From: a virus
Reading direction: 5' to 3' (one strand)
Virus record (IMG/VR): IMGVR_UViG_3300024262_003114
Coordinates: 1 to 25,766 of that record
DNA length: 25,766 nt
A program made the translations under genes and the position numbers. Below, in pieces: positions 2,381-23,965 of the stretch (the first letter of the stretch is position 1; every line of letters begins with the position of its first letter). The notes under the pieces are model-generated. The model saw only the letters and a list, made by a program, of their open reading frames with translations. It ran no database searches and was not told where the DNA came from.

Positions 2381-2399
2381 CTTTTTTCAATTTGGTTGA

Positions 2400-2407
2400 T
2401 ATTTATC
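2400..2407 (+). promoter_or_regulatory. Late-promoter-like box (TATTTATC)
   Basis: ATATTTAT occupies 2399-2406, with the start codon of the next gene at 2411. Only four bases separate the box from the ATG and no Shine-Dalgarno is possible there. The box is the reverse of the T4 late consensus TATAAATA. If it works as a -10 element, the transcript starts at or within a base or two of the ATG. Confidence 0.55.
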
Positions 2408-2410
2408 TAT

Positions 2411-2818
2411 ATGGCAAATTCAGATTCATCAGATACAGGTGTCGGTATAAACCGTCAATCACTCGCAACAAGTCTTGAAGAAAGATATTTAGGGTGGAAA
2501 GGGCAAAAAGAGCGTGAAGCTCCAACTGCTGTAGATTTCCTCAACAATAAATATGTTGAAGGGTTCAAAATGAACAAACAAGCAGGAGGCGCATCTGACA
2601 TACGAGCAATTGGCCTTGGTGGACCAGGCGCAAAATCATTGTATTCAGAAGAAAGAGGAATTCCATCATCTGTTAATTTCTTGACCGACATATATCAAAC
2701 CCAATTTATCAAAAAAATGCAAGTTCGCCAAACATCATTCAAAGGAAACGCCTTGAATTATGTTAATGGTATTCCAGGTTTCAGCAACAAAAAATATTTT
2801 ACTGGCGGAATCCAGTAA
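2411..2818 (+). CDS. Hypothetical late protein, 135 aa
   Basis: The ATG at 2411 (MANSDSSDTG) is preferred over the in-frame TTG at 2396 because the ATATTTAT box lies directly before it; the TTG start would put that box inside the gene. The protein has no signal peptide, membrane segment or known motif. It contains two similar segments, PTAVDFLNNKYVEGF and PSSVNFLTDIYQTQF, about 55 residues apart, so it may be an internal duplication of a short helical unit. Its position next to a virion-like protein suggests a structural or assembly role. I do not recognise the family. Confidence 0.7.
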   Translation: MANSDSSDTGVGINRQSLATSLEERYLGWKGQKEREAPTAVDFLNNKYVEGFKMNKQAGGASDIRAIGLGGPGAKSLYSEERGIPSSVNFLTDIYQTQFIKKMQVRQTSFKGNALNYVNGIPGFSNKKYFTGGIQ

Positions 2819-2838
2819 ATTCAAACAAAGGTTATAAC

Positions 2839-3237
2839 ATGAGTAAATTTGACTGGGGGCATTGGCTTCCTCCAAAAAACATAGATACAATTCCAGAAAA
2901 TACTATTGGTTTCGTTTATAAAATCACGGATAGTAATGGGAAATTTTACATTGGATGCAAACTTACCGTGAAAACGATAAAACGTCCGCCGCTTAAAGGG
3001 AAAAAACGTCGTAGGATTTGTGAGGTTGATAGTGATTGGAGAAAGTATTGTTCATCAAGCGGAAAAATTGCAGAAGATGTTGAAAAAAACGGTGACAAGT
3101 TCAAGTTTGAGATTTTGAGTTTCCATGAAAGTAAATCCTCAATGAAAATTGAAGAAACCAAACAGATCATTGAGAATATATACGATCCCAAATGTTGGAA
3201 TGAGATGATAAATATCCGTCTAAGAGTTGTCAAGTAA
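2839..3237 (+). CDS. GIY-YIG-fold nuclease-like protein, 132 aa
   Basis: The N-terminal half carries the GIY-YIG signature: FVYKIT at residues 25-30 and FYIGCK at 36-41, spaced as usual. It is followed by a basic stretch (RPPLKGKKRRR) and SDWRKYCSSS. A Glu-rich helix near residue 105-112 could supply the catalytic glutamate. Small proteins of this type occur in many T4-like phages and may be fixed phage genes rather than mobile endonucleases. A Shine-Dalgarno AAAGG at 2827-2831 lies 7 bases before the ATG, so the gene is probably translated from the transcript of the preceding gene. It has no DNA-binding repeats like those of the GIY-YIG gene at 17845. Confidence 0.65.
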   Translation: MSKFDWGHWLPPKNIDTIPENTIGFVYKITDSNGKFYIGCKLTVKTIKRPPLKGKKRRRICEVDSDWRKYCSSSGKIAEDVEKNGDKFKFEILSFHESKSSMKIEETKQIIENIYDPKCWNEMINIRLRVVK

Positions 3238-3253
3238 AATAAGTTATTATATG

Positions 3254-3282
3254 TTGACTGTTATGGGATTATAGTTTATAAT
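3254..3282 (+). promoter_or_regulatory. Sigma70-type promoter for primase and recombination genes
   Basis: TTGACT at 3254-3259 and TATAAT at 3277-3282 are separated by exactly 17 bases. A start site 6-7 bases after the -10 falls on the primase ATG at 3289, so this mRNA would also be leaderless. It is the only classical -35/-10 pair I recognised, and it precedes the replication genes rather than the late genes. Confidence 0.65.
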
Positions 3283-3288
3283 TTCAAA

Positions 3289-4206
3289 ATGTCGGTAAAA
3301 TTGTTGTTGGACAAAGCATTTAATCAAGACGGAAAAGAAGTCCGTGGTGGCGAAATTATGTACGATTGCCCGAAATGCAACCATCATAAACCCAAATTGT
3401 CAGTCAATGTTGAAAGTCAAAATTGGAAATGTTGGATTTGTGGACATACACATGACACTCGTGGAAAAAGCATCTTCACTTTATTCAAGTTTTTAAAGGC
3501 GCCTAAAAAATTATTTGAGGAACTTAAAAAATTAAAGCTGGATAGAAAAGAATTCAAAATTGAAAACATTGAAGAAAAGATTCAGTTGCCAGAGGAATTT
3601 AGAAGTTTGACAAAAAAGAGTATTCACCCAGGTTACAGACAGGCATTATTTTATTTAAAGCGAAGAGGTATAACGATATCTGAAATAATAAAATACAACA
3701 TTGGATATTGTGTTTCAGGTGATTACAAAGACAGAATCATTTTACCTAGTTATGATGCTTCTGGTATGTTGAATTATTTTGTAGCAAGAACTTGGATAAA
3801 AGATCATACATTGAAATACAAAAATCCACCGGTCTCAAAAAATGTAGTCGGTCTTGAATTGTTTGTTAATTGGAATCTGCCTGTGTATTTGTGTGAGGGT
3901 ATTTTTGACGCAATTGCAATCAAACGGAATGCAATTCCTCTTTTTGGAAAAACATTGAATGATTCGTTGAGATTGGCATTGATTGCAAACTCAGTCAAGG
4001 ATGTATATATAGTATTAGATCAGGATGCATTGTATAATGTAATGAGAAATGCCCAAGAACTTCAATCATGGGGTATAAATGTACATGCCGTGGAATTAAC
4101 AGGAAAAGATCCTTCTCAATTAGGATATGTGGAAATACAGAATTTAATCAATCAAACTAAACAATTTGAGTTCAACGATTTGTTAAAACTCAAACTATCA
4201 TTATAA
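3289..4206 (+). CDS. 61: DNA primase, T4 gp61-like
   Basis: DnaG-type primase that would make RNA primers for lagging-strand synthesis with the phage helicase. The N-terminus has a zinc ribbon: CPKC near residue 26 and CWIC near residue 48. The TOPRIM domain shows the acidic motif LCEGIFDAIA (around residues 201-210) and the DxD motif VLDQDA (around residues 242-247). At 305 residues it is somewhat shorter than T4 gp61 (342 residues). It lies directly downstream of a sigma70-type promoter whose predicted start site coincides with the ATG. Its stop codon overlaps the next ATG by one base, so it is co-transcribed and probably translationally coupled with the gp47-gp46-like gene. Confidence 0.85.
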   Translation: MSVKLLLDKAFNQDGKEVRGGEIMYDCPKCNHHKPKLSVNVESQNWKCWICGHTHDTRGKSIFTLFKFLKAPKKLFEELKKLKLDRKEFKIENIEEKIQLPEEFRSLTKKSIHPGYRQALFYLKRRGITISEIIKYNIGYCVSGDYKDRIILPSYDASGMLNYFVARTWIKDHTLKYKNPPVSKNVVGLELFVNWNLPVYLCEGIFDAIAIKRNAIPLFGKTLNDSLRLALIANSVKDVYIVLDQDALYNVMRNAQELQSWGINVHAVELTGKDPSQLGYVEIQNLINQTKQFEFNDLLKLKLSL

Positions 4207-7200
4207 TGGAAATAGAAACACTCAGCATACAACACGACAAAATTGAAACAATTTACCACGTTGCGGATATTCATATACGAAATGTAAAACGTCATGACGA
4301 ATACCGAGAAGTATTTGATAGATTTTTCAAGGATATTGAACAACGGGGTCAGAAAAACTCAATCATCTTCATTGCAGGTGACATAGCACACTCAAAGGTT
4401 GAAATGAGTCCTGAATTAATTAAGGAAATGTCCGACTTTTTAAGCCGTTGCGCTGACTTTACTGATACTCTGATTATACCAGGGAACCACGACTGTTTCA
4501 CTGGAGACCATGAAGTTTTAACGAGGGTCGGGTGGCAGAGAATATCTGATATCGTTGAGGGCGACCAAAATATTGATGTTTGCTGCTTTGATTCTGAGAC
4601 ATGTGAGTTAAATTTTGACCAACCAATTGCAAAAATAAAAAAACCATTTTCAGGAGATCTAATTCATTTTACAGGAAAAGATGTTGATTTGAAAGTTACA
4701 CCGACTCATGAGATTTTATATCAATTTTCAGGTTATAACACTCAATTTTCAAAAAAAATGGCAAAAGATTTGCCGAAACAGGCACATATTCCGATAAACG
4801 GGGTGATCACTGATTTTGAAAATGATACTTTTTTCAATTTACTTGGATTCTCATTTGCTGATGGAACTTTTGTTCTGAAAAATGAAAGAACCGGAACATG
4901 TAGAATACAATTTAGATTAAAAAAACAAAGAAAAAAAGATTATTTAAGCAAATTGCTTGATGATTTGGGATATGAATATAATTGGAGACATGGGACTGAT
5001 GGTGTTAGTACAGTTTGCATATATTCGGATTTGGCTAGAAAAATTTATTCATTTTTCAATGGACAAAAAAGCATTCCATTTGACTTATTATCAGAGTCGC
5101 GTAGTAAAATAAAATCATTTGTTGATGGGTATTTTGAGGGTGATGGCTGGGTCATCAAGAATTCAGTTCATGGATTTTGTTCAATTGATAGACAAAGTAT
5201 AGAAGTATTACAAACAGCGATGAGATTCATAGGTGGAACTTCTCATTCAGATCTTGAACCTTTCTTGAATGGTGCATTTGAAAATTCCAAACCTCAATAT
5301 GGTTGCAATTGTAACCTCAACAACAAAGTAAATAGAACAAAAGTCCAAAGTCGTGAAAACATACCTTTCACAGGCGATGTATATTGTTTAACGGTTCCAA
5401 CATCAAATTTGTTAATACGCCGAAATAACAAAATCTTTATCACTGGAAATTGTAATCTTAACAACAAGACCCGACTAGATGTTATTACGCCAGTTGTTAA
5501 AAATTTATCACATCCACATTTACACCACTTGGATAAAAACTCATTGTATAAATGTAAAAATTTATTGATCTCGCATTATCTTATCAGCGAAGATTCTGAG
5601 AATTTTATTACATGTGACAAAATACCATCAACATATAAAAATAAGTCAGACACCTTAGTTTCAACATGGCATGGCCCAATGAATCAAGCGAAAACTGACA
5701 TTGGGTATGAAGTAAGTAATAAAGCTATAACCAAAGACCTTTTCAAAGGGTTTGACATCGCTTTACTCGGTGATATTCACATGTACCAATGTTTACAGAA
5801 GTTTGACAGTGTTGAAGAATTGCCTGAAATCGTTTATCCGGGGTCAATGGTTCAACAAAATCACGGTGAAGCGTTTGATGGTCATGGATATTGTGTATGG
5901 GATGTAAAATCAAGAAATCATGAACATGTTGAGTTGAAAAACGATTATGGGTATTTTACGGTAAATATTAGAGATGGAGACATTGAAGGCGATCTATCAG
6001 AATTACCACCAAAGGCAAGATTACGAATCCGTTGTTTTGAAACCGAACCGGCGGAGGTTAAAAAAGCTCTTGCAAAGATTCAAAAATTATCAGATTTACA
6101 AGAAGTTTCATACATTCGTGGTGATGCAATCAAGGATTTAAAGCGTGGTAATGTTTCCAAAGTACCTTTAGTTCGTTTGAATGATGTAAATTTCCAAAAT
6201 ACATTGATTGAGAACTTTCTCAGACGAAAAAATCCGAAAATCAAGAAAAAGTCATTGGACTTAATCTTTGAGATTAACCGAAATTTGAATTCAAGATTAT
6301 CACAAGACGATAAAGTTCCAAACATTCAGTGGGTACCTAAGACTTTTAAGTTTGACAACATGTTCTCATATGGTGAAGGTAATGTCATTGACTTCACGAA
6401 GCTCAATGGAATCAATGGAATATTTGCTGGAAATGCATCAGGTAAGTCCAGTTTGATGGATGCGTTCTGTTTCTGTTTGTGGGATAAATGTTCAAGAACA
6501 TTCAAAGCCGCCAATGTGATGAACGAATCCAAAATGGGTTTCAAATGTGAGGTTGAATTTGAAATTGATGGAGTTTCATATTTTGTAAAACGTGCAGCAA
6601 AACGGAACAAAAAAGGCGACGTAAGGGTTGAGGTAGATTTTTACAAAATGGTAAATGGTGAAAAAGAAAATCTAAATGACGAATCACGACGAAGCACCAA
6701 TGACATTATTCGTTCATATATAGGTTCATACGAAGATTTCATTTTGACCGCTTTAAGCTTACAACGAAACAACTCAAATTTCATTGATAAAGGTCAAAGC
6801 GAAAGAAAAGATTTGATCGCTCGGTTTTTAGGTATAACTATTTTTGACCATTTAAGTCAACAAGCACAAGAAGAATCAAGAGATATTTCAGCCTTTATCA
6901 GAAAACATGATAGAAAGAAGATCCTCACAAAGACATCATCACTTGATGATCAAATTTTTATTGCTGAAGAAAAATACAATAAAATGTTGGATATAAAAGG
7001 TGAAATCGTAACTCACCGAGAATCATTATTGAAACAAATAGTGGAAAAGAATTCGGAGATTGTGAATTTGGCAAATGTACCCGATAACATAGATGACTTT
7101 GAGATTGAATTGCAACAAAAAGAAAAGTTATCATCTGCAATTAACATTGATGCTTTAAAATCTGAGTGTGATGTATTCACAACAACGATTAAACAAATCA

Positions 7201-8354
7201 AGCAAAATATTCTTGACTTTGAAGATTCAAACATTGAAAAACAAAAAGATGAATTTGACGAAACAACCAAAAATTTAAATTCATTGAATTCTGAAATTGA
7301 AATTTTAAAAGTTGAAGTAAGAAATAAACTTGATAAGGTTGCATTCTTGGATACTCATGAATATGATCCTGAATGTGAGTATTGTAACAAAAATGCATTT
7401 GTTCAAGATGCGATTCAATCAAAGACTGATTTGGAAACTCTAAAGCCAAATGTAGTGGATAAGATGAAACAGAAAAACAAATTAGTGGAAATGTTGGAAA
7501 CTCTTGATGATATACCAGAAAAATATGATCAATATAAAAACCTTCAAACTAAATTGTCAAAGATAGAATCAGAATATCATAAATGCATCAATTCGGTTCA
7601 AGAAAAAGAAAAAGAACTTATCAATTTGAATAACGAGATTGACAATTTGAAAAAGAAAATCAAACGGTTTAATGATTCAATTGATATTATCAAGAAAAAT
7701 GAAAAAGTAAAAAATGAAATTTTACAACTAAACGATCAACTTGAAAAATTTTCAGGCAAACTTAAAATTGCAGATGAAAAAATCATGGAAACCAATTCAC
7801 AAATCAACGTTTGGAAAAATGACTTGAAAAACTTCAATGACTTGTTGGTTGAGTTGGATGAATTGGAAGAACAAAATCATGCATATCAATTGTATTACAG
7901 TAGTGTATCTCGCGACGGCGTTCCATATGACATAATTTGCAAATCAATCCCTTCAATTGAAAGTGAGATCAATGAAATATTGTCTCAGCTTGTTGAATTT
8001 GGAATTTCAATTGAGATGGATGGAAAGAATGTAAACGCTAGTATAGTATATGATGAAAAATGTTGGCCAATTGAATTGACAAGTGGAATGGAAACCTTCA
8101 TTTCAAACTTAGCAATTCGTATCGCATTGACAAATATTTCCAATATGCCTAAGACTACCTTCTTGATGATTGATGAAGGGTTTGGCGCTTTGGATTCTGA
8201 GGTTATGGCGTCATTACATCAACTGTTCACCTTCTTGAAAGTGAATTATGATTTTATCATGGTAATTTCACACATTGATACACTTCGCGACGTTGTTGAT
8301 GGCCACATTGAAATACAAAAAGAAAAGGGATTCAGCAACGTGATTTTTGATTAA
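4206..8354 (+). CDS. 47-46: Fused Mre11-Rad50-type recombination nuclease/ATPase (gp47-gp46-like) with intein
   Basis: One 1382-residue frame encodes what T4 makes as two proteins. The N-terminal part is an Mre11/SbcD-type phosphoesterase: DIH at 21-23, GD at 58-59, GNHD at 93-96, and after the intein STWHG and LLGDIH. The C-terminal part is a Rad50/SbcC ATPase: Walker A GNASGKSS (Lys 747), coiled coil roughly 890-1250 with a zinc-hook C1057-x2-C1060, signature-like LTSGME, and Walker B FLMIDEGFG (D1323, E1324). An intein covers residues 97-415; the spliced product would be about 1063 residues. The role would be end resection in recombination-dependent replication. The stop overlaps that of the convergent minus-strand gene by a few bases, leaving no terminator between them. 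Confidence 0.85.
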   Translation: MEIETLSIQHDKIETIYHVADIHIRNVKRHDEYREVFDRFFKDIEQRGQKNSIIFIAGDIAHSKVEMSPELIKEMSDFLSRCADFTDTLIIPGNHDCFTGDHEVLTRVGWQRISDIVEGDQNIDVCCFDSETCELNFDQPIAKIKKPFSGDLIHFTGKDVDLKVTPTHEILYQFSGYNTQFSKKMAKDLPKQAHIPINGVITDFENDTFFNLLGFSFADGTFVLKNERTGTCRIQFRLKKQRKKDYLSKLLDDLGYEYNWRHGTDGVSTVCIYSDLARKIYSFFNGQKSIPFDLLSESRSKIKSFVDGYFEGDGWVIKNSVHGFCSIDRQSIEVLQTAMRFIGGTSHSDLEPFLNGAFENSKPQYGCNCNLNNKVNRTKVQSRENIPFTGDVYCLTVPTSNLLIRRNNKIFITGNCNLNNKTRLDVITPVVKNLSHPHLHHLDKNSLYKCKNLLISHYLISEDSENFITCDKIPSTYKNKSDTLVSTWHGPMNQAKTDIGYEVSNKAITKDLFKGFDIALLGDIHMYQCLQKFDSVEELPEIVYPGSMVQQNHGEAFDGHGYCVWDVKSRNHEHVELKNDYGYFTVNIRDGDIEGDLSELPPKARLRIRCFETEPAEVKKALAKIQKLSDLQEVSYIRGDAIKDLKRGNVSKVPLVRLNDVNFQNTLIENFLRRKNPKIKKKSLDLIFEINRNLNSRLSQDDKVPNIQWVPKTFKFDNMFSYGEGNVIDFTKLNGINGIFAGNASGKSSLMDAFCFCLWDKCSRTFKAANVMNESKMGFKCEVEFEIDGVSYFVKRAAKRNKKGDVRVEVDFYKMVNGEKENLNDESRRSTNDIIRSYIGSYEDFILTALSLQRNNSNFIDKGQSERKDLIARFLGITIFDHLSQQAQEESRDISAFIRKHDRKKILTKTSSLDDQIFIAEEKYNKMLDIKGEIVTHRESLLKQIVEKNSEIVNLANVPDNIDDFEIELQQKEKLSSAINIDALKSECDVFTTTIKQIKQNILDFEDSNIEKQKDEFDETTKNLNSLNSEIEILKVEVRNKLDKVAFLDTHEYDPECEYCNKNAFVQDAIQSKTDLETLKPNVVDKMKQKNKLVEMLETLDDIPEKYDQYKNLQTKLSKIESEYHKCINSVQEKEKELINLNNEIDNLKKKIKRFNDSIDIIKKNEKVKNEILQLNDQLEKFSGKLKIADEKIMETNSQINVWKNDLKNFNDLLVELDELEEQNHAYQLYYSSVSRDGVPYDIICKSIPSIESEINEILSQLVEFGISIEMDGKNVNASIVYDEKCWPIELTSGMETFISNLAIRIALTNISNMPKTTFLMIDEGFGALDSEVMASLHQLFTFLKVNYDFIMVISHIDTLRDVVDGHIEIQKEKGFSNVIFD
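4494..5450 (+). mobile_element. LAGLIDADG intein in the Mre11-type nuclease domain
   Basis: Removing residues C97-N415 restores GNHD-CNLNNKTRLD, the continuous phosphoesterase motif. Block A is CFTGDHEVLTRVGW, block B contains TPTHEI, block F is VYCLTVPTSN and the end is FITGN before Cys+1. The penultimate residue is Gly rather than the usual His. The homing endonuclease is the two-motif LAGLIDADG type: LLGFSFADG and FVDGYFEGDG. Length is 319 residues. Insertion directly after the metal-binding GNHD would inactivate the nuclease unless the intein splices out. Confidence 0.88.
5307..5327 (+). repeat. Internal copy of the intein's C-terminal splice junction
   Basis: This 21-base segment inside the intein encodes NCNLNNK, the same seven residues as the true junction at 5448-5468 (last intein Asn, then Cys+1 and the extein). 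The two copies match at 18 of 21 bases and all three differences are synonymous. Confidence 0.75.
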
Positions 8355-11227
8355 GTTGCAAGTGTTTTTCGAACCACCGAATCTATCGCAGTTCTTTCTT
8401 TGTCTGAGAGGTGTTCGTTCTTAAGCAATTCATAAAAACGACTAAGTGCTAGTGCGAAAGTTTCTTTGTCAAGATGTTTTTTCATTAACGCCGTCAATCC
8501 GCCGAAAGATCTGAAAACTTCAAGTTCTTTGTTGGTTGGGGAATTTCCGAATATAACTTTGAATATTTTTGAAATATCAATGATCAATGCAAATTCAGCA
8601 CCCAACTCCCCTTTTCGTTTGGCTTCAACAAATTCATAAGCAGGCGTTCCATCTGGAAGTTTTCCAAGTAGACGGTAAGCACGTCGTATCCCAGCACCAC
8701 CTCCACCTGTATTTAACGTGTAGTTAGATGGCATAGAATGTTTTGCGCTGTTTGAAATATCACGGTCAGTCAATTCTTTTCCTACTTGGAATTTCTTTGA
8801 TCCTCCAGGTGTTAATACAACTCCATTTTCAATACGTGTTGCTGCTCTAGTTACCGAACGTAACATCAAAGCACCAGCAAGACCTTTTACTCCACTTAGA
8901 ATATCATCCCATGGAGAATCTTTTGAAAACTTATTCCAATCAGACGGTTTTTTGAACTTCTCTCCATCAATATCAACAATTTGCATATGATCATGTTCAA
9001 AGTCAATTTGTACAATTTGTTTTTTGGGAGCATAATACCATAATGTCACGGTTTGGTCAGGAATAGAAGCATAACTACGCGTTCTTCCGACATAATAAAA
9101 CTCAGGTGTAATTCTGTTTTGTGCCGTTGGCTTCCATTTTACTTGGTTGTCATCTATTTTGTCAAGATATTCTTCCAAATCTTTCCCTTTTTCAATTGGA
9201 ATGATGATGTCAATGTCGCCAAATGTAGGTTTCACCTTTTCAATTGTTTTTACCCGTTCAGGATGCATTAAATGTTGTGAACTTCCATTATACATGTATC
9301 CGTTGGCAATAAATGGATTGTTCGGTTTCCAAAATTTCAATACATCGTTCAAAGCATATGTCAATTTACGAATATCAGAGGAAACCTTGCTTGCTTGTCC
9401 ACCTTCTATTGAAATCTTTTTCGTGATTCGTATAGGAGCCCCATTCAGTAATTTTGGAGTTTTTGGATCAACTGCGGCAATTGACTGACCACTTTCGTTT
9501 AAATTTTTATTTTGAGATATTTTTTGCGATACCACATCACGAAGTATTTCTCTGATTTGTTCTTTTGCTGTCATTTTGTTTTGAATGTCTTTATTCATTT
9601 TATCCCAAATTTCTTGTTTTTGGTTGATTTGTAGTGGTGGAAGGTATTTGAAGAAGTTAGTTTTATCTCCAGATTGCAAAAACTCTCTCATTTGAGTTCC
9701 GCTTATTTTTACAGTTGATTCACGGGATATTCCTCGTTTTTCAATGCGATTCGTTTTGACCATAGTTGGAGCATATTTTTCTAACTGTTCACCGTCGAAG
9801 TTTCCTTCTACGTCGTGGTCATCTGAATACAATTTAACCATAGGAACATCTATGTTGTCTTGCGTAAGCAATTGTTCAAACCATTTAAGTTCAAAGATGG
9901 AATGTCTTACAGGAGAATCTGTAAATTTCACTTTTACATTTTTTGGAAGTTGTGGAATAAAAAACTCATTCCAGAAGTAAGCGAAAGTTTGTCCGCTGAC
10001 ATGTAGTTCGTTTTTTCTATTTCTATCCGCCAAAGATGTATACACTACAACCCTATCGTTTTCCTTTGATGCCAGCTCAATTAGTTTCCAATGACCTATG
10101 TGTAGAGGTTTTCCAGCAATTGGAATCACGCCTATAGTTTTTGGTGATACGCCTAATGTCTTAGACTTGGAAATCATTACCCTAGCAGTTTCATGTGCGT
10201 CGTCACGGATTTGGATTTCATTCCGTTTGTCATTTTTTGGGAATTTTTCAATTGGAAGTTTCGCAGCGATTTTTTGAAAATGTTTCAACAGTTGTTGACG
10301 TGGTTGATTCAAATCAATTCTGCTTAAAACGACCGACACAAGTTTTCTCATTTTTATGAAATATTCCGTCGTTTCATCAGCAGACATCTGAAATTTTGAT
10401 TTCTTATCATTACGTTGTTCCACATCGTATTGGTCAGCTTGAACATATTTGAAATACTCTCCATTATCCAATTTGAGAACCACGCCTTCGCTGATTCCGC
10501 CTAAAATAGACTCAACACCCAAAAGCATATTTCCAAACTCTTTGACGATTGATAGTGGGTCTTTAAAATCTATGTTTGATTTTACAAATTGTTCTCTGAG
10601 TTGTGGTGATTGTATTCCCTTCTCAATTTCAGATTTACTTGAAATTTTTCCATCAAATATCACAGGAAAATTCATGATCTCCAAATTTGATGCCATTTCC
10701 TTGATTTTTTTCAAATCAGTTTCTTCATCTTTTTGTGGAATGGAAATTAAAACTCCATCATGTATATAGTATTTTACAGGAGCATAAGTCCGTAAAAACA
10801 TCCCACCTAAGTTTTTATATGTTCTCGTCAGAGTGTCTTTGTTTTGTGCAAACTCAATTGAATACTCCATATTTTGAGGGATTTTTGATGCATCCAATTT
10901 TTTAAGGTGGTCAAACACCAATGCATATTGTGAGATACCAATTGATTTACTTTTTATATTTTTTAAATCTAAATCGGTTAAATGTGCAAATTCATCCGAG
11001 AAGATCACCGTATCTTTATATGAAACGATGTAATTTTCAGCGTAATTTTCACTGTTTTTGTCGGTTCGTATGACGGTCAGTTTTGTTCCGTCTATTTTTT
11101 CCTGAATCAACATGTTGTGTGAAACAAACTCATTTGCTTTTTTAATTTGCGTTTTTTCTCCAAGTGGTTTGGATTTTGTACCGAAAATATGAGTTATTGT
11201 ATTTTTTATAGAAATGTCTAATGCCAT
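8351..11227 (-). CDS. Three-domain nucleotidyltransferase: ligase core, HxGH NMNAT-like domain, Pol-beta-type NTase
   Basis: The only minus-strand gene in the window, 958 residues. Domain 1 (about 1-330) looks like an RNA/DNA-ligase adenylation domain: motif I EKIDGTK with Lys44 as nucleophile, motif IV SEGVVLK (246-252) and a motif V-like lysine near 260. Domain 2 (about 360-530) looks like a cytidylyltransferase-fold NMN adenylyltransferase: PLHIGHW with H376 and H379, and ISGTQMR at 508-514. Domain 3 (about 610-800) looks like a Pol-beta-type nucleotidyltransferase: GSS at 648-650, GDIDI with D671 and D673, and a possible third Asp at 742. The remainder (800-958) is unassigned. Substrates are unknown; RNA end repair or NAD metabolism are both possible. 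The start lies behind a minus-strand ATATTTAT box. Confidence 0.75.
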   Translation of the reverse strand: MALDISIKNTITHIFGTKSKPLGEKTQIKKANEFVSHNMLIQEKIDGTKLTVIRTDKNSENYAENYIVSYKDTVIFSDEFAHLTDLDLKNIKSKSIGISQYALVFDHLKKLDASKIPQNMEYSIEFAQNKDTLTRTYKNLGGMFLRTYAPVKYYIHDGVLISIPQKDEETDLKKIKEMASNLEIMNFPVIFDGKISSKSEIEKGIQSPQLREQFVKSNIDFKDPLSIVKEFGNMLLGVESILGGISEGVVLKLDNGEYFKYVQADQYDVEQRNDKKSKFQMSADETTEYFIKMRKLVSVVLSRIDLNQPRQQLLKHFQKIAAKLPIEKFPKNDKRNEIQIRDDAHETARVMISKSKTLGVSPKTIGVIPIAGKPLHIGHWKLIELASKENDRVVVYTSLADRNRKNELHVSGQTFAYFWNEFFIPQLPKNVKVKFTDSPVRHSIFELKWFEQLLTQDNIDVPMVKLYSDDHDVEGNFDGEQLEKYAPTMVKTNRIEKRGISRESTVKISGTQMREFLQSGDKTNFFKYLPPLQINQKQEIWDKMNKDIQNKMTAKEQIREILRDVVSQKISQNKNLNESGQSIAAVDPKTPKLLNGAPIRITKKISIEGGQASKVSSDIRKLTYALNDVLKFWKPNNPFIANGYMYNGSSQHLMHPERVKTIEKVKPTFGDIDIIIPIEKGKDLEEYLDKIDDNQVKWKPTAQNRITPEFYYVGRTRSYASIPDQTVTLWYYAPKKQIVQIDFEHDHMQIVDIDGEKFKKPSDWNKFSKDSPWDDILSGVKGLAGALMLRSVTRAATRIENGVVLTPGGSKKFQVGKELTDRDISNSAKHSMPSNYTLNTGGGGAGIRRAYRLLGKLPDGTPAYEFVEAKRKGELGAEFALIIDISKIFKVIFGNSPTNKELEVFRSFGGLTALMKKHLDKETFALALSRFYELLKNEHLSDKERTAIDSVVRKTLAT

Positions 11228-11231
11228 GGTA

Positions 11232-11239
11232 AATAAATA
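11232..11239 (-). promoter_or_regulatory. Late-promoter-like box for the minus-strand gene
   Basis: On the minus strand this reads TATTTATT, followed by TACC and the ATG at 11227. This is the same box and nearly the same spacing as at the plus-strand genes, which makes chance AT-richness less likely. Confidence 0.5.
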
Positions 11240-11342
11240 TTTTATAGTTGTTGTATTTGATTTTTTATAATATAATCCAAAAAATATAAAAAGTCAAGAA
11301 TTTTTTTAATTTGATATGAAATTTAAATAACTTCACATTTTA

Positions 11343-11350
11343 TATTTATC
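11343..11350 (+). promoter_or_regulatory. Late-promoter-like box (TATTTATC)
   Basis: The box is followed by TATT and the ATG at 11355. With the minus-strand box at 11232-11239 it makes a divergent promoter pair inside the 127-base gap 11228-11354; the rest of that gap is AT-rich with no other feature seen. Confidence 0.55.
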
Positions 11351-11354
11351 TATT

Positions 11355-13469: not shown

Positions 13470-13486
13470 TTTTTAAAATAACCCGA

Positions 13487-13494
13487 TATTTATA
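13487..13494 (+). promoter_or_regulatory. Late-promoter-like box (TATTTATA)
   Basis: The box is followed by CGC and the ATG at 13498. TATTTATA is the exact reverse complement of the T4 late consensus TATAAATA. Confidence 0.55.
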
Positions 13495-15447: not shown

Positions 15448-17476
15448 AAAGTTAATTGCTTCAGAATACAAGAAATGTGCTGCTGACCCAGCATATTTCA
15501 TGAAAAAGTATTGTAAAATTCAACATCCAAGTAAAGGTACGGTAAATTTTAACTTATACCCGTTTCAAGAAAACGCTGTACGAGAATTTCGTGACAATCC
15601 AAAAAATATCATTTTAAAATGTCGTCAAATGGGCATATCTACGCTTACGGCGGGATATAGCATGTGGATGATGACATTCCACAAAGATAAATCCATTCTT
15701 GTAATTGCAACGAAACAAGACGTTGCTAAGAATCTGGTAACCAAAGTCCGTTTCATGAATGACAATCTTCCATCTTGGATGCGTCAAAAAGAAGTGGAAA
15801 ATAACCGAACAAGTTTAAGATTAAAAAACGGTTCACAAATCAAGGCGGTTTCCGCTAGTGGGGATGCTGGTCGTTCAGAAGCTTTGAGTTTATTGGTTGT
15901 GGATGAGGCTGCTTTCATTGATCAAATTGATGAGATTTGGACATCTGTTCAATCCGCAATGACTCATGGTGGAGGAAACGCAATCGTTCTTTCAACACCA
16001 AATGGTATGGGTAATTGGTTTTACCGCATGTGGAAAGAGTCAGAAGAAGGTATTCAAAAATTTAATACAATCAAACTACATTGGACACTTCACCCTGAAT
16101 ATGATCAATTATGGCGTGACGAACAAGATGTTTTACTAGGGCCAAGGGGAGCCGCTCAAGAATGTGACTGTCTATGGGGAGATTCAAAAGTTAAAATACT
16201 TGACACACACACAAATGAAGAATCGTGGGTGACTCTTGAAGATTTATACAAAAATAATCAACCGGGTCCAAACGGCATAAAACACAACAACCGATACAAA
16301 ATCCAAACTCCAAATGGATTTGAATTATTTTCTGGAATGCGTAGATTGGAAAAAAAATCACATTATGTTATCACATTGTCGTCAGGTAAGAAAATAAAAT
16401 GTTCAGAAACTCACCCATTTATGTGTAGAATTGGTTTGGTAGAAGCTAATGCATTAACAGAGGGTATGGAGTTGTGGGGGTTTTGTGATAAAATTCACGT
16501 TGTGTCAATTGAAAAAATTGAAAAATCTATAATACTTTATGATGTTTTAGAGGTTGATAATGGAAATATATTTGTTGTTGATGACATTGTATCCCACAAT
16601 TGTTCATTCGTTTCATCTGGTAATTCAGTAGTTGATCTTGAAATACTTAAATGGTATCAAGAAGAACAAATTAAAGATCCAATTTCAAAAGAATATCATG
16701 ATCAAAACTATTGGCGTTGGGAATATCCAGACTTCACACGAACTTACACGGTATGTGCCGACGTTGCTCGTGGAGATGGTGAAGATTACTCCACATTTCA
16801 TGTGCTTGATATTGAAAGGAATGTTCAAGTTGCAGAATACAGGGGTAAAATTGAAACAACCGAATTTGGAAACTTGTTAGTACAAGTTGCAACTGAATGG
16901 AATAATGCGTTGCTTATCATTGAAAATGGAACTATTGGGTGGGCTACTATCCAACGGGTAATAGACCGAAATTACCAAAATCTATTTTACATGAATGAGG
17001 ACATGAAATATATTGATCCAAACGAACATATCACAAACAAGTGGAATGCTCGTGAGAAAAGAGCTACAGCTGGATTTACAATGTCAGTGAGAACACGTCC
17101 ATTAATTATTTCAAAACTTGATTTGTATTTTCGTGATAAGGATGTAACCATTCATTCTATGAGAACCATAAATGAGTTAATGACATTCATATGGCACAAC
17201 GGAAAGGCACAAGCCGCCAAAGGTTATAATGATGACTTGACAATGGCACTTGGAATTGGATTGTGGGTTAGAGATACCGCTTTAGTTTTGAAACAACATG
17301 GTATTGATATGCAAAGGACTGCATTAGATCACATGGGAAAATCAAAGTTTAATGAAGGTGGGGTATATTCAACAGGAACATACAACCGAAATGGGTCAGG
17401 ATACCCAGCAAAAGATCCATATACTCAGAATTTTGGAAATGGAATATCTGAGGACTTACGTTGGTTGTTAAAATAA
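15428..17476 (+). CDS. 17: Terminase large subunit, T4 gp17-like, with mini-intein
   Basis: ATP-driven DNA-packaging motor and headful nuclease. The ATPase domain shows a deviant Walker A CRQMGIST (65-72), Walker B LLVVDE with D159-E160, and coupling motif LSTPNG (188-193). The RNase H-like nuclease domain shows ADVARGDGEDYS (Asp445), LLIIENGT, and NDDLTMAL, which supply the metal-binding acids. A 144-residue intein (248-391) separates the two domains; without it the protein is 538 residues, somewhat shorter than T4 gp17 (610 residues). The start overlaps the preceding gene and no strong Shine-Dalgarno is seen, suggesting coupled translation. Confidence 0.92.
   Translation: MSKQDLKKLIASEYKKCAADPAYFMKKYCKIQHPSKGTVNFNLYPFQENAVREFRDNPKNIILKCRQMGISTLTAGYSMWMMTFHKDKSILVIATKQDVAKNLVTKVRFMNDNLPSWMRQKEVENNRTSLRLKNGSQIKAVSASGDAGRSEALSLLVVDEAAFIDQIDEIWTSVQSAMTHGGGNAIVLSTPNGMGNWFYRMWKESEEGIQKFNTIKLHWTLHPEYDQLWRDEQDVLLGPRGAAQECDCLWGDSKVKILDTHTNEESWVTLEDLYKNNQPGPNGIKHNNRYKIQTPNGFELFSGMRRLEKKSHYVITLSSGKKIKCSETHPFMCRIGLVEANALTEGMELWGFCDKIHVVSIEKIEKSIILYDVLEVDNGNIFVVDDIVSHNCSFVSSGNSVVDLEILKWYQEEQIKDPISKEYHDQNYWRWEYPDFTRTYTVCADVARGDGEDYSTFHVLDIERNVQVAEYRGKIETTEFGNLLVQVATEWNNALLIIENGTIGWATIQRVIDRNYQNLFYMNEDMKYIDPNEHITNKWNAREKRATAGFTMSVRTRPLIISKLDLYFRDKDVTIHSMRTINELMTFIWHNGKAQAAKGYNDDLTMALGIGLWVRDTALVLKQHGIDMQRTALDHMGKSKFNEGGVYSTGTYNRNGSGYPAKDPYTQNFGNGISEDLRWLLK
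16169..16600 (+). mobile_element. Mini-intein in terminase large subunit
   Basis: Excision of C248-N391 joins QECD to CSFVSSGNSV, restoring a continuous terminase sequence. Block A starts CLWGDSKVKILD, block B contains CSETHPF, block F is LYDVLEVDNGNIFVVDD and the end is IVSHN before Cys+1, with the canonical penultimate His. At 144 residues there is room for the splicing domain only: no LAGLIDADG, HNH or GIY-YIG motif is present. Confidence 0.9.
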
Positions 17477-17486
17477 TTTCTGCATA

Positions 17487-17494
17487 TATTTATT
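17487..17494 (+). promoter_or_regulatory. Late-promoter-like box (TATTTATT)
   Basis: The box is followed by TAC and the ATG at 17498. It opens the unit that contains the coiled-coil gene, the homing endonuclease and the portal. Confidence 0.55.
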
Positions 17495-17497
17495 TAC

Positions 17498-17839: not shown

Positions 17840-17844
17840 AGGTT

Positions 17845-18612
17845 ATGGCAGAATATTACATTTATAGTATAAAAAATGAAAAGAATGGAAAACTTTACAT
17901 CGGAAGTTCCATGCAACTCAAACGGAGATGGATAACTCATAGAAGTGAATTGAAACGGAATATACATCCAAATGAACATTTGCAGAGATCATATAATAAA
18001 CATGGAAAAGATGTTTTTGTATACTCGATAATACAATCAGGCATAAACGACAAATTGGAATGTAAAAATTGTGAAGATCATTTTATTGAAAAATTTAACA
18101 CGTTGAATAATTCACATGGATATAATAAAGCATATTCAAATTTTGAGTCATCTCCAATGTTAGAATCTGTGAAATTGAAAATTTCAAAATCATTGAAAAA
18201 TAATAAATCAATTTGCAAATCAGTCATCCAATATGACATACACACCGGCAAAAAGATAAAAACATGGATATCAGCGTCGGATGTTGCTAGGGAATTATTT
18301 AATGGAAAATGTCAGTCTAATATATCAGCATGTTGTCGTGGCAAATGTATCGCTGTTAAGGGATTTGGATTTTGTTTTGAGTCTGAATTTGATTGTCGTA
18401 TGATAGATCCAACATACAAACAAGTAAAACATTCACATAATAGAGAAACCAAAATCAAACAAATATTTAAATCTGGAAAAGAAAATGTATATAATTCAAT
18501 AAAAGAAGCAATAGAAGCCACTGGATTTTCATATAAAGTGATATCAAGATGTGTCGCTGGTCATAGAAAGTTGGCATACAATTGCAAGTGGGAATATCTA
18601 AAGGGAATATAA
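17845..18612 (+). CDS. Free-standing GIY-YIG homing endonuclease with IENR1/NUMOD repeats
   Basis: The N-terminus has YYIYSI (residues 4-9) and LYIGSS (17-22), the GIY-YIG motifs, with candidate catalytic Arg27/28 and Glu near 77. Two C-terminal DNA-binding repeats of the NUMOD1/IENR1 kind follow: one around VIQYDIHTGKKIKTW (about 130), ending GFGFCF, and one around ENVYNSIKEAIEATGFS (about 218), ending CKWEYL. This is the make-up of mobile Seg/I-TevI-like enzymes. It is inserted between the coiled-coil gene and the portal, with 5 bases upstream and 1 base downstream, so it rides in the late operon. AAAGG at 17838-17842 is only two bases from the ATG. Confidence 0.85.
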   Translation: MAEYYIYSIKNEKNGKLYIGSSMQLKRRWITHRSELKRNIHPNEHLQRSYNKHGKDVFVYSIIQSGINDKLECKNCEDHFIEKFNTLNNSHGYNKAYSNFESSPMLESVKLKISKSLKNNKSICKSVIQYDIHTGKKIKTWISASDVARELFNGKCQSNISACCRGKCIAVKGFGFCFESEFDCRMIDPTYKQVKHSHNRETKIKQIFKSGKENVYNSIKEAIEATGFSYKVISRCVAGHRKLAYNCKWEYLKGI

Positions 18613-18613
18613 T

Positions 18614-21600
18614 ATGGCAGATTTAAGCGTATTTAAGAGATTGCAAAAACTTTTCTCAACTGATGTAATTGTTAGAAATATAGGCGGGAAAAAATTGAAA
18701 GTGGTTGATACCAACCGAATTCAATATGCAACTGATAGAAATTCACTGCGAGATCGTTTTAATAGACTCCGCAGTTCAACATACAACTTGCACAATAGAG
18801 ATATGTCAATGGCATATCAAGCTAGCAGGTTAGAGTTGTTTAGGGACTACGACACAATGGATATGGACCCGATTCTAGCGTCTGCCTTGGACATCTACGC
18901 TGATGAATGCGTCGGGGAGAATGAGATGGGTGACGTTTTAACCATTCAATCGGATGACGAAAACATCAAAGCGATATTAGAAAATCTATTTTATGAGATT
19001 CTAAACATTGAATTTAACTTATGGTCTTGGACTCGTAACATGCCGGTGAAATTTGATTCTATAATTCCATTGTTAGATGGGCGTAATATAACCATCAAGG
19101 AGTTATCAGAAGAAATAAAATCAGGAAAAGAAATATGGGTATATTCATGTCAAGACGGAACAAATAAAACTGTTCCCGGAAAAGTCGTGTGGTGTGATAA
19201 AAACTATACATCTGAAAAAATAGTTCAAATTGAATTGGATGATGATTCTATTTTAGAGTGTTCTCCCGAACACCCATTTATTCTAAGGGATGGGACTGAA
19301 GTTAGAGCCGACGAACTTATGGAATCTGATAGCTTGATGCCTTTTTATAGAAAATTAAGTGAAAAGAAAAACAAGTGTGATCTTGATAAATATGAAATGA
19401 TATTATCAAATGAATCAAATGAATATGACTTTACACACCGAATCGTTGCAAATGAACTCAATGTTAAATCATATGGAGAACCTGAAGTAATCCACCATGT
19501 AGATTTTAACAAATATAACAATGAACCGGCAAATCTTCAAAAAATGGATTTCTTTGAACATAAAAAGTTTCATGCTGACCATTGTAAGGCTGTGTTACAC
19601 ACTCCCGAAGTTACTAAGAAACGATTGGATTCTTTGCAGAAATATTTACGGTCAGATAGTAGAAAGAAACGACTATCTGATGAAATGAGAGGAAAACGAA
19701 TAAAGTATTTTGATGAATATAATGCATCACCTCTACATTCAACACACAATAAAATACGGTCAGACGTAAAACGTAATATGTGGAAAGACCCAAAAAAGAG
19801 AAAAGCTTATTGTGAAAACATGAAAAATAAATGGAATGACAAACTTGAAGATATTCTCCAGATTGAAATTTCAAAAGTAAGTCGTGGAGAAAGAGGGGCA
19901 ATCAACCATGATGAATTGTTACAATCGTTAAAAAATAACAATAATTTTATATCTGAGTGGGAATCTGTTAATTCCAGAGAGTTTAAACGACTTCCGTCTA
20001 GGGCAAAAGACGGACAGAGAAACCACAAAGTCAAAAGCGTCTCAGTTATTGCGGAGAAATCGGACGTGTATTGCATGACGGTTGTGGGTCCGAATGGTGA
20101 AAGGGATAGGCATAATTTTGCAATATTAGGTAAAAACAAAGATGGCACTTTCAATGAAAACAGTGGAGTATTTACCAAAAATTGTAAATATGGTGATTTT
20201 TTCCTCAAAATGGAAATCTCACCTGAATATGGTGTTTATTCAGTTGAACCGTTGAGTGCATATGAAGTAACACGTATAGAGGGAATTGACCCTGAGAATA
20301 AGAATTATGTGAAATTTCAACATGATGGCGCTTACGGTGGAATGGAGTATGAAAATTATGAAGTTGCACATTTTAGATTAATTTCAGACTCAAACTTTTT
20401 GCCGTATGGCCGTAGTCAAATAGAACCAGCACGTCGTGTTTGGAAACAACTTTCATTAATGGAAGACGCTATGCTTATCCATCGTATTATGAGAGCACCT
20501 GAACGTCGGATTTTTTACGTTGACATTGGAAATATTCCACCAGCTGAGGTTGATACATACATGGAACGATTGATCAATAAAATGAAGAAGGTTCCATTTA
20601 TTGATGAGAAAACCGGCGATTACAATTTGAGATTCAACCTTCAAAACATGAATGAGGATTTTTATATGCCTGTTCGTGGAGGTGATAGTGGAACTAAAAT
20701 TGAAAATTTAGGAGGGCTTGATTGGACTGGAACTGAGGATTTGGAGTATATCAGAAATAAAATGATGGCTGCTTTAAAAATTCCAAAAGCATTTTTAGGT
20801 TACGATGAAACCATTTCAGGGAAAGCAACATTGGCAGCTGAAGATGTTAGATTTGCAAAAACGATTCAACGAATTCAAAAAATTATTGCATCTGAATTGA
20901 CCAAAATTGCCATTCTACACTTATACGTTCAAGGATACACAGACGCGTCAATGATCAATTTCGAATTGAGGTTGTCAAACCCATCAACGATTTTCAAACA
21001 AGAAAAGGTTGCACTATGGGGTGATATGATGAGTGTTGCTGGTGATATGATTGACAGAAAACTATTTTCAAAACGTCATGTATATGAACATTTGTTTGAA
21101 TTGTCTCCGGATGAAACTGATAAAATTTCAAATGAAATCATTACAGATACCAAGGAATTATTTAGACTCAACACAATTGAGAATGAAGGAACTGACCCAG
21201 CTGCACAAGTGACTAAGGTTGCAACCGACGCTGAAGAAGAAGGCGGAGACGAATTTGGCGGCGGAGGTGACTTTGGTGGTGGAGACTTCGGTGGCGACAT
21301 GGGTGGAGGCGATGAATTGTTTGAAGGAGATATTCCAAAACCAGGTGAAGATAATAGACCAGAAGAAGTCAAAAAAGACCAAGACAATTTGAAAAAACCA
21401 ACAACTACACAAGGATTGAGTGATCGTAGAAAAGATGCTGACACAAAAGATCTGGATATTTTAGGGAAACGAAGTCGGATTGTGAGAGGGAAAACCGAAG
21501 AACATGAAGACGATAGATTCAACAAAAGACCAAATTTTTCAATATCGGAAGAACTGGAAAATTTGAAAAAGAAGATTGGAAATACCTCAAAATCAAAGAA

Positions 21601-21637
21601 GTCTTTATTAGACGAAAATAATATTTTGAAAGATTAA
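18614..21637 (+). CDS. 20: Portal protein, T4 gp20-like, with HNH intein
   Basis: Ring-forming head portal that starts prohead assembly and docks the terminase. The extein parts, residues 1-143 and 524-1007, give a 627-residue portal with typical T4-type stretches: PILASALDIYADEC, YGRSQIEPARRVWKQL, MRAPERRIFYVDIGN and KIPKAFLGYDE. T4 gp20 is 524 residues; the excess is a C-terminal tail with a Gly/Asp-rich low-complexity stretch (about 876-902) and a charged end. The Shine-Dalgarno AAGGGA at 18601-18606 lies 7 bases before the ATG, as expected for an operon-internal gene. The large intein interrupts the conserved RNM-CKYGDFF segment. Confidence 0.9.
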   Translation: MADLSVFKRLQKLFSTDVIVRNIGGKKLKVVDTNRIQYATDRNSLRDRFNRLRSSTYNLHNRDMSMAYQASRLELFRDYDTMDMDPILASALDIYADECVGENEMGDVLTIQSDDENIKAILENLFYEILNIEFNLWSWTRNMPVKFDSIIPLLDGRNITIKELSEEIKSGKEIWVYSCQDGTNKTVPGKVVWCDKNYTSEKIVQIELDDDSILECSPEHPFILRDGTEVRADELMESDSLMPFYRKLSEKKNKCDLDKYEMILSNESNEYDFTHRIVANELNVKSYGEPEVIHHVDFNKYNNEPANLQKMDFFEHKKFHADHCKAVLHTPEVTKKRLDSLQKYLRSDSRKKRLSDEMRGKRIKYFDEYNASPLHSTHNKIRSDVKRNMWKDPKKRKAYCENMKNKWNDKLEDILQIEISKVSRGERGAINHDELLQSLKNNNNFISEWESVNSREFKRLPSRAKDGQRNHKVKSVSVIAEKSDVYCMTVVGPNGERDRHNFAILGKNKDGTFNENSGVFTKNCKYGDFFLKMEISPEYGVYSVEPLSAYEVTRIEGIDPENKNYVKFQHDGAYGGMEYENYEVAHFRLISDSNFLPYGRSQIEPARRVWKQLSLMEDAMLIHRIMRAPERRIFYVDIGNIPPAEVDTYMERLINKMKKVPFIDEKTGDYNLRFNLQNMNEDFYMPVRGGDSGTKIENLGGLDWTGTEDLEYIRNKMMAALKIPKAFLGYDETISGKATLAAEDVRFAKTIQRIQKIIASELTKIAILHLYVQGYTDASMINFELRLSNPSTIFKQEKVALWGDMMSVAGDMIDRKLFSKRHVYEHLFELSPDETDKISNEIITDTKELFRLNTIENEGTDPAAQVTKVATDAEEEGGDEFGGGGDFGGGDFGGDMGGGDELFEGDIPKPGEDNRPEEVKKDQDNLKKPTTTQGLSDRRKDADTKDLDILGKRSRIVRGKTEEHEDDRFNKRPNFSISEELENLKKKIGNTSKSKKSLLDENNILKD
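19043..20182 (+). mobile_element. HNH intein in portal, N-terminal proline (class-3-like)
   Basis: Excision of P144-N523 joins WTRNM to CKYGDFF. The intein is 380 residues. It starts PVKFDSIIPLLDG, with no Cys, Ser or Ala nucleophile. Block B is CSPEHPF (His220), block F is DVYCMTV with Cys487 at the position used as nucleophile in class 3 inteins, and the end is GVFTKN before Cys+1, with Thr521 and a penultimate Lys instead of His. The tryptophan of the class 3 W-C-T triplet is not at its expected block B place (RDGT rather than a GW). The HNH endonuclease is clear: HHVDFNKYNNEPANL (from His294) and EHKKFH. Confidence 0.85.
21236..21330 (+). repeat. Gly/Asp-rich low-complexity repeat in portal C-terminus
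   Basis: Repeating ggcggaggtgact-like units encode FGGG and DFGGG repeats of the portal tail. A similar acidic Gly-rich style recurs in the core-like protein at 24082. Confidence 0.7.
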
Positions 21638-21649
21638 AAAAAAGTTATA

Positions 21650-21664
21650 TATTTATTATAAATA
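21650..21664 (+). promoter_or_regulatory. Late box with perfect dyad (TATTTAT-T-ATAAATA)
   Basis: Seven bases and their exact reverse complement surround one T. The left arm is the ATATTTAT-type box of this phage; 21657-21664 is TATAAATA, the T4 late consensus, ending directly before the GTG at 21665. The spacing from the left box to the start codon is longer (7 bases) than at other genes. Confidence 0.5.
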
Positions 21665-22117: not shown

Positions 22118-22141
22118 AGACAAAGCATAACTGAGAATTTA

Positions 22142-22564
22142 ATGGGTAATATATCATCCAATTCAGTTGTTCAAGATGAAAAAGATAAATTGATTGAGTA
22201 TTACAAAAAACAAGAAAAAGATTTACAACTTCTTTCATATAAAATATTAGTTGATAATTTCAACAAAAAATATTCAAATCTGAATGAGAAACAAAAAACT
22301 TTACTCAGAGAATATATCAACAACGTAAGCAATACAAATTCACTTAAAGGTTATATGGATAGTGAAGTTCCAATTGTAAAAAGTGAAATTAAAAAATTGT
22401 CTGAGAATATATCAGATTCGGTTGTGAAAATCAAATTGAATGAAACTTGTCGCCAACTTGATAAAATTACAAATGGGAAGATAGCTAAAGACTCCCATGT
22501 TACTTCTTTACTTTTGTCTTATGAATTGATCAAAGAATTAAAGAACGTAACAAAAAATGGATAA
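22142..22564 (+). CDS. Head-region protein, C-terminal part after amber codon, 140 aa
   Basis: In the same frame as the preceding gene, separated by one TAG and eight sense codons before this ATG. There is no Shine-Dalgarno or late box before the ATG, which argues against independent initiation. Helical and Lys/Glu-rich, with EKDLQLLSYKILVDNFNKKY and LLREYINNVSNTNSLKGY as the most conserved-looking stretches. It overlaps the next gene by 8 bases. Function unknown; likely the C-terminal half of the upstream protein. Confidence 0.65.
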   Translation: MGNISSNSVVQDEKDKLIEYYKKQEKDLQLLSYKILVDNFNKKYSNLNEKQKTLLREYINNVSNTNSLKGYMDSEVPIVKSEIKKLSENISDSVVKIKLNETCRQLDKITNGKIAKDSHVTSLLLSYELIKELKNVTKNG

Positions 22565-23030
22565 AACCGAGTTAAAAAATTTAATAAAAGAATTCATCCG
22601 AGAAGAACTTGATGAAATTTCTACAACAGGCGCAACACCTGGTTACAACACTCCGAACGCTTTTTCAAGTAAAAGTGTAAAATGGAGAGGTGGAGACCTT
22701 GGCGCCAACAGTATGCCTCATCCCGAAGAACGCAAACGGAAAGAGGTTGACGATGAAGATCCTGGAAATTTATCAGAAGCATACTCAAAATACAAACGAT
22801 TTAAAGAGAGTAACACTTACAAAAAACACAATTCTAAAGTGTCGTTCTTGGCAATGGAAATTAAGAAAATGCTTAAAGAAGTTGATTATCTGGTCAAAAT
22901 TAGCAATAAATTAAAAAATGAAGCTGATATTTCTCCTGACAATTTGTGGAAACGTACAACGAGAGATTTACAGGAAATTGGAATGTATTCAAAAAAAATC
23001 TCTCAAAATATACAAGGATTAACCCGATGA
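22557..23030 (+). CDS. Hypothetical head-region protein, 157 aa
   Basis: Starts 8 bases before the end of the previous gene, without a clear ribosome-binding site. The N-terminus DKTELKNLIKEFIREELDEI is an amphipathic helix with (I)-x-E sites, followed by a Gly/Pro/Asn-rich stretch (TTGATPGYNTPNAF) and a helical C-terminal half. Its stop overlaps the next start as ATGA. The N-terminal helix and location before the protease suggest a prohead-associated protein cleaved during maturation; this is inference. Confidence 0.65.
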   Translation: MDKTELKNLIKEFIREELDEISTTGATPGYNTPNAFSSKSVKWRGGDLGANSMPHPEERKRKEVDDEDPGNLSEAYSKYKRFKESNTYKKHNSKVSFLAMEIKKMLKEVDYLVKISNKLKNEADISPDNLWKRTTRDLQEIGMYSKKISQNIQGLTR

Positions 23031-23431
23031 AATTAAGAGATTTAATGAATGAAACTATGCTTCGTGAAGAACCAAGCATAAACAGCACAATAAAATTTGA
23101 TGTTGGAAAAGAAATTGAAGACATGAAACAAGCAATTTTGAAATACGAACAATCAGCGTTTGACCAAACAACACAAACATTAAGACGTAAACTTGTGGGG
23201 AATCATATTGATGGGAAAAACGGATTGATTGAAGTAACGGATGTATTTGTTAAACAATCAGAGGAAGGCGATCATGAATATACAGCGTATGTGAAAACAA
23301 GCGACGGTAAGACAATTGGATTGCCAAATCAAATCAACATACAAAATGATAATGATGCTCCAGTTACCTCGGTAACTCAGAATACAGCTCAACCAAGTAA
23401 CACCTCACCACATAAAGTTACACAATTTTAA
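23027..23431 (+). CDS. Hypothetical head-region protein, 134 aa
   Basis: ATG 23027 is chosen over the in-frame upstream ATG at 22946 because it overlaps the previous stop as ATGA and has AAGGA at 23014-23018, 8 bases upstream. The N-terminus MKLRDLMNETMLREE resembles the N-terminal helices of neighbouring proteins. The middle (about 63-105) looks beta-rich, and the end is Thr/Asn/Pro-rich and probably disordered. No family recognised. Confidence 0.65.
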   Translation: MKLRDLMNETMLREEPSINSTIKFDVGKEIEDMKQAILKYEQSAFDQTTQTLRRKLVGNHIDGKNGLIEVTDVFVKQSEEGDHEYTAYVKTSDGKTIGLPNQINIQNDNDAPVTSVTQNTAQPSNTSPHKVTQF

Positions 23432-23441
23432 CGCCATTGTA

Positions 23442-23449
23442 TATTTATA
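23442..23449 (+). promoter_or_regulatory. Late-promoter-like box (TATTTATA) before protease
   Basis: The box is followed by AGC and the ATG at 23453, the same three-base spacing as at 2411, 13498 and 17498. Confidence 0.55.
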
Positions 23450-23452
23450 AGC

Positions 23453-23965
23453 ATGAATAAAAGTTTGTTAGTTGATTATATCCCATTTGAGGTTCCTAGA
23501 GGGATGCTTCAGGAATCTATAAAAAGTGGAATGCCCCTTGAAGTAAAGGGAATTCTTCAACGCTCGGATGCGAAAAATCACAATGGACGAGTATACCCTC
23601 ATCAAATTTTAATGAGAGAGGCACAAAACTACACGGAGAATTTCATTAACGAAAATCGTGCTTATGGTGAACTTGATCATCCTGATTCATCGGTGGTTGA
23701 ATTGAAAAATGCATGTCACATGATAACCGAGATGCATTGGGAAGGTAAAGACCTTGTAGGAACATGTAAAATTTTATCAACTCCAGCAGGAAATATTTTG
23801 AAAGAAATTCTTGCCTGTGGAGGTAGACTTGGAATATCAAGTCGTGGATTGGGTTCAGTAAAAGAATTACATGAAGCAGATGGACCTGTAGTTATGGTTC
23901 AAGAAGATTTTGAATTGATTGGATTCGACTTCGTTAGCAACCCAAGCACCACGGTGCTTTTATGA
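23453..23965 (+). CDS. 21: Prohead maturation protease, T4 gp21-like, frame broken near C-terminus
   Basis: Serine protease that cleaves head proteins during maturation. Herpesvirus-assemblin-like features are seen: AYGELDHP with the catalytic His, and GRLGISSRG with the catalytic Ser. The open frame stops at TGA 23963-23965 after NPSTTVLL (170 residues), while the expected continuation NPST-HGAF is read in the -1 frame from 23950. The remaining C-terminus lies in the original frame at 23972-24079. Joined, the protein would be about 208 residues, close to T4 gp21 (212). Both catalytic motifs lie before the break, so activity could survive truncation. Confidence 0.82.
   Translation: MNKSLLVDYIPFEVPRGMLQESIKSGMPLEVKGILQRSDAKNHNGRVYPHQILMREAQNYTENFINENRAYGELDHPDSSVVELKNACHMITEMHWEGKDLVGTCKILSTPAGNILKEILACGGRLGISSRGLGSVKELHEADGPVVMVQEDFELIGFDFVSNPSTTVLL

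Follow-up and report, generated by a model that had tools for sequence, protein, structure and literature searches.

What is the function of an AT-only octamer that stands a few bases ahead of the start codons of phage genes, in the place where a ribosome-binding site would be expected? The question is raised by IMGVR_UViG_3300024262_003114, a virus contig which is a fragment of a genome and has 34.6% G+C; its whole 25,766-nt stretch is called the window here. The octamer ATATTTAT has 12 copies on both strands of the window, compared with a mean of 3.7 in shuffled sequences, and none of 100 shuffles reached 12. Seven copies are in sense orientation and the other five are antisense within genes. 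A first-pass annotation had placed the box 4-5 bases before six ATGs, and all six were located. The spacing is 4 nt for the plus-strand boxes at 2399..2406 (ATG 2411), 13486..13493 (ATG 13498), 17486..17493 (ATG 17498) and 23441..23448 (ATG 23453, prohead protease). It is 5 nt for the box at 11342..11349 (+; ATG 11355, virion structural) and for the minus-strand box at 11233..11240 (ATG 11227, ligase/nucleotidyltransferase-like fusion). With 21 starts, 0.003 genes with this arrangement are expected by chance (P about 1e-16 to 1e-18), and the box is therefore genuine and far above chance. In all six genes the box begins 12-13 nt ahead of the ATG, the position of a -10 element. The gene starts were predicted by a custom coding-potential caller which did not use promoter signals.

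The seventh sense copy, at 21649..21656 (+), had been read as leading a GTG start at 21665. The orthologues of this gene begin with MKKLKHSKY, and stop codons are present just ahead of that methionine in the relatives; the start is thus probably ATG 21683, 26 nt downstream of the box, which serves a short-leader gene. AT-rich variants of the box had also been proposed before 14833 and 24741, and neither gene has the box. Relatives of 14833 align with AAAGG or AGAGG ahead of the ATG, and AGGG stands at Shine-Dalgarno (SD) distance before 24741, so that both look like SD genes. A box-like TATTTATA at 25205..25212 (+), 111 nt before 25323, is a candidate late promoter with a leader. SD-like sites were found in 7 of the 14 window genes lacking a box versus 8% in shuffled upstream regions, confirming that unit-internal genes have SD-like sites. 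The statement that no SD site can fit before the boxed starts is true; it follows from the position of the box and hence is not separate evidence.

The gene content of the window relates it to the T4 superfamily. Family matches identified the head genes terminase, portal and prohead protease, and genes for a primase and an SbcC/D-type nuclease are also present. Judged by prohead protease, the named phages closest to the window are Microcystis phage Mel-JY01 and Flavobacterium phage immuto, and they resemble it in gene neighbourhood and order. Three core genes look intein-interrupted, their family matches being split around an insert: the SbcD/SbcC-like fusion (4206-8354, 1,382 aa), the terminase (15428-17476, 682 aa) and the portal (18614-21637, 1,007 aa), the last with an HNH endonuclease match inside. 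Two free-standing homing-endonuclease-like genes (2839-3237 and 17845-18612) are situated between phage genes. The 785-aa protein encoded at 23-2380 contains FG-GAP repeats and a dockerin type I domain, which is unusual for a phage. The 958-aa fusion at 8351-11227 (-) has a cytidylyltransferase/NMNAT-like middle part with unassigned flanks, and its orthologues also bear the leaderless box.

To place the box in a wider frame, relatives were gathered by portal and gp55-like searches as viral contigs of up to 297 kb. In the large relatives ATATTTAT/TATTTATA was the top or near-top motif ahead of genes. The identical motif script returned TATAAATA for T4, cyanophage S-RIM44 and pelagiphage Mosig, which indicates that the method works and that the clade differs. 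TATAAATA was near background in most clade members. The clade consensus is not the TATAAATA of T4 but a switched form, TATTTATA, in which just the two central letters differ. The clade boxes have, 14-17 nt upstream, a T-tract that is weak at 0.2-0.4 bits per column. One 96.7-kb relative (L152, G002) showed very low coding density, with 19% called under table 11. Its longest stop-free run increased from 994 codons to 2,528 with TAG read through and to 2,281 with TGA, which may reflect a recoded stop or an assembly rich in frameshifts.

In 123 non-redundant box genes from 11 contigs, the spacing between ATATTTAT and the start codon was analyzed. Distance was 0 in a single gene and 1-3 in none, while 60 genes fell at 4-8, of which 25 were at 5. 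Only 9 genes were found in a valley at 9-14 and 43 in a second hump at 15-26. The floor is thus at 4 with the mode at 5. A hard floor with an adjoining mode is the pattern expected of start codons that can never lie ahead of the transcription start, and a valley is expected when leaders of about 5-10 nt function poorly. The peak was absent for the reverse complement and for TATAAATA in the clade, and TATAAATA-to-start distances in the T4 control were 13-34, never below 13. The base preceding the start was a pyrimidine in 51 of the 60 near-box genes against 558/783 (P 0.01).

The spacing is also conserved between orthologues. That of the prohead protease gene (23453) is retained in two relatives (L006 and L007), L007 also retains that of the 17498 gene, at 50% identity, and the spacing of 5 at 11227 recurs in orthologues at 44-47% identity; the 13498 protein had no relatives among the viral contigs searched. 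Box carriers represent a minority of genes and have either a wider gap upstream or a divergent neighbour. Those with a match among annotated PHROGs encode virion structural or head-tail proteins, while several box genes are unnamed; in the window the box carriers include the prohead protease and virion structural genes.

Since the geometry of sigma70-type promoters is known, they allow the leaderless idea to be tested without assumptions about the late box. TTGAC formed a needle peak: in 25 genes its first T stood exactly 35 nt ahead of the start codon. At 34-38 it was found in 76 genes, compared with 7.7 expected from a background of 1.5 per position. The peak at 35 was missing in T4, S-RIM44, Mel-JY01, G008 and immuto, and Mosig showed a slight TTGAC excess of 5. 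The TTGAC genes tested encode replication and metabolic enzymes, including DNA polymerases, a helicase, two DNA ligases and glycosyltransferases. The window contributes such a promoter, TTGACT-17-TATAAT at 3254..3288 (+), with TTGAC beginning exactly 35 nt before ATG 3289 of the primase gene and TATAAT at -12; this gene is predicted to be early and leaderless. These early promoters would be positioned with the start codon at +1. As TTGAC and box classes are both placed close to the start, early and late genes share the placement. Leaderless initiation would then be a genome-wide habit of the branch and not confined to late genes. The first-pass annotation had regarded it as a trait of late genes, which is supported for those genes and appears too narrow for the branch.

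A candidate reader of the box was found in the relatives. In T4 late transcription, a textbook system, the sigma factor gp55 is activated by the sliding clamp gp45 with gp33. A weak PHROG gp55 match in immuto was the first lead to a gp55-like protein, which is present in seven genomes or large contigs and at 80 or more loci in viral contigs. When its profile was compared with that of T4-type gp55, the N-terminal sigma domain aligned (hhalign P 9e-6, probability 83%), a link that is remote in sequence. The best PDB match of a structure model built from 11 sequences (mean pLDDT 72) was T4 gp55 chain 7d7c_F (Z 10.5, rmsd 2.4 A, 104 residues). Many sigmas share sigma domain 2, and nearly all other top structure matches were this domain of other factors; hence the modelled fold is secure at the level of sigma domain 2 and identity at the level of gp55 is likely. 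The gene was absent from the 25,766-nt window, itself a fragment, and we infer its presence in the rest of the window's own genome from the relatives. PHROG 12791 and 223 (gp45) profiles gave no match anywhere, controls included, and are therefore uninformative. A gp55-like gene also occurs on a 3.4-kb contig (L356, JACTVG010000072.1) of a Methanoregulaceae MAG, probably misbinned phage DNA in an archaeal MAG.

T4 gp55 reads A-12 by Y97, A-9 by N13 and H95, and A-8 by T99 (PMC7892883). In the hhalign register, which is a remote alignment, the clade residues at these pocket places are Tyr, Thr and Phe, and Ser, respectively. The clade box in the TATTTATA register retains A-12 and A-8, not A-9. 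ATATTTAT is, letter by letter, the complement of TATAAATA; this was discarded as not meaningful, the two adenines being kept in the TATTTATA register. The pocket changes may be tied to the change of A-9 to T; the link is suggestive only, because cyanophage gp55 likewise has Phe at the H95 position, yet the cyanophage genome favours TATAAATA.

Taken together, the most probable explanation, which we hold with good confidence, is a gp55-type late promoter placed so that the RNA starts at the start codon, with early promoters placed alike and leaderless mRNAs as the product. ATATTTAT(A) would serve as the -10 element in a late promoter of T4 type, its consensus switched from TATAAATA to TATTTATA, read most likely by the clade's own gp55-like sigma on the host RNA polymerase. 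In many unit-first late genes of the window's phage and its relatives, transcription would start on the start codon or no more than about 3 nt from it. Such mRNAs would be leaderless or nearly so and translated without SD pairing, half of the other genes of the window having SD sites. The earlier proposal that the first genes of late units are transcribed from the start codon itself is thus supported by the distances, the orthologue spacing and the gp55-like sigma, and needs restriction, as about half of the box genes of the clade are short-leadered. In strict T4 geometry the box lies at -13 to -6 (PMC2988020). Applied to the TATTTATA register at spacings of 4-5, this puts +1 at 1-2 nt inside the ATG, so either the spacing to +1 is slightly shorter here or transcription starts at a preferred purine.

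The strongest competitor, a real possibility though clearly the less probable one, is a late promoter with a leader of about 1-8 nt, which would make the mRNAs ultra-short-leadered and not truly leaderless. Spacings of 6-8 in 27 of the 60 near-box genes agree with it, as does the fact that start sites are deduced from promoter positions. Against this, the distance floor of 4 with its mode of 5 places the ATG at the earliest possible start, and in the early class, where TTGAC peaks at exactly 35, +1 is fixed at the ATG. We consider it improbable that sigma70 or an alternative host sigma uses the box as an ordinary -10 element, with no phage sigma involved. The T-tract lies near a -35-like position and would suit such a promoter; the sigma70-type promoters, however, have TTGAC and precede replication genes, while the nameable box genes are structural. 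The box moreover follows the phage branch across the hosts Microcystis and Flavobacterium, and the branch encodes a gp55-like protein.

That the box acts in the RNA, as an AU-rich translation enhancer and not as a promoter, we regard as very improbable. It does adjoin the start codon, and AU-rich sequences are reported to help initiation in SD-poor hosts, in work on Flavobacterium (PMC6847099). However, Mel-JY01 and G008 have this box 14-45 nt upstream, together with SD sites close to the ATG, only a minority of genes carry it, ones with wide upstream gaps or divergent neighbours, and the box is similar to the T4 late promoter and goes together with the gp55-like sigma. Misassigned start codons, with true starts downstream behind a normal SD leader, account for GTG 21665 but hardly for the others, where the first-Met N-termini are conserved among orthologues of 23453, 17498 and 11227 and the prohead proteases of Mel-JY01 and immuto can be aligned from the first residue on.

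The leaderless reading raises the question of whether the hosts are rich in leaderless genes or translation is redirected by the phages. In SD-poor relatives such as G013 and G001 the SD frequency is at chance, and leaderless initiation may reflect the host. A Bacteroidota host for the SD-poor relatives was considered, but their early promoters are of TTGAC type and not TAnnTTTG, the type described for flavobacteria (PMC9723704). Bacterial and archaeal genomes, searched with the portal for clues to the host, gave no match. The phage of the window has SD starts alongside the predicted leaderless ones, and its host appears to be SD-using. Expression of early and late genes of the branch on leaderless mRNAs could, in SD-using hosts, separate phage unit-first genes from host mRNAs at ribosome initiation; we offer such a takeover of translation as a speculation that is rather unlikely. 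Ribosomal protein S21 was rejected as the cause, being found in Mel-JY01 (L214) and G008 (L215), both leadered, and not in the leaderless relatives searched.

The analysis points to a large, mostly uncultured branch with an altered promoter centre and a diverged sigma, a natural experiment on the reading of positions -10 and -9 by gp55. With leaderless placement in both temporal classes, gene finders relying on SD sites would misjudge starts in these genomes. Neither leaderless late transcription in T4 relatives nor TATTTATA as a late promoter was reported in the open-access literature searched.

Among T4-type late promoters TATAAATA is near-invariant, with an a/gC variant at -13/-12 in Aeh1. 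They are, to our knowledge, without -35 conservation, and we know of no upstream T-tract described for T4. The clade shares with T4 the superfamily structural genes, a gp55-like sigma showing the fold of sigma domain 2, and an AT-only 8-bp box at -10 before structural genes (PMC2988020, PMC7892883). It differs in the consensus, TATTTATA in place of TATAAATA, and in the distance, 4-8 nt before many starts compared with 13-34 nt in T4. Mel-JY01 and immuto have the TATTTATA box, the gp55-like protein and the gene order in common with the window; their boxes are mostly 11-45 nt upstream (leadered) and they show no TTGAC peak at 35. In leaderless 'TA-led' bacterial genes a -10 box precedes the start codon by about 10-12 bp (PMC3160421). 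They resemble the present arrangement in that a -10-type element sets the transcription start at the start codon without an SD site; they are bacterial genes, whereas here a phage branch would use the same placement with both phage-type late and sigma70-type early promoters.
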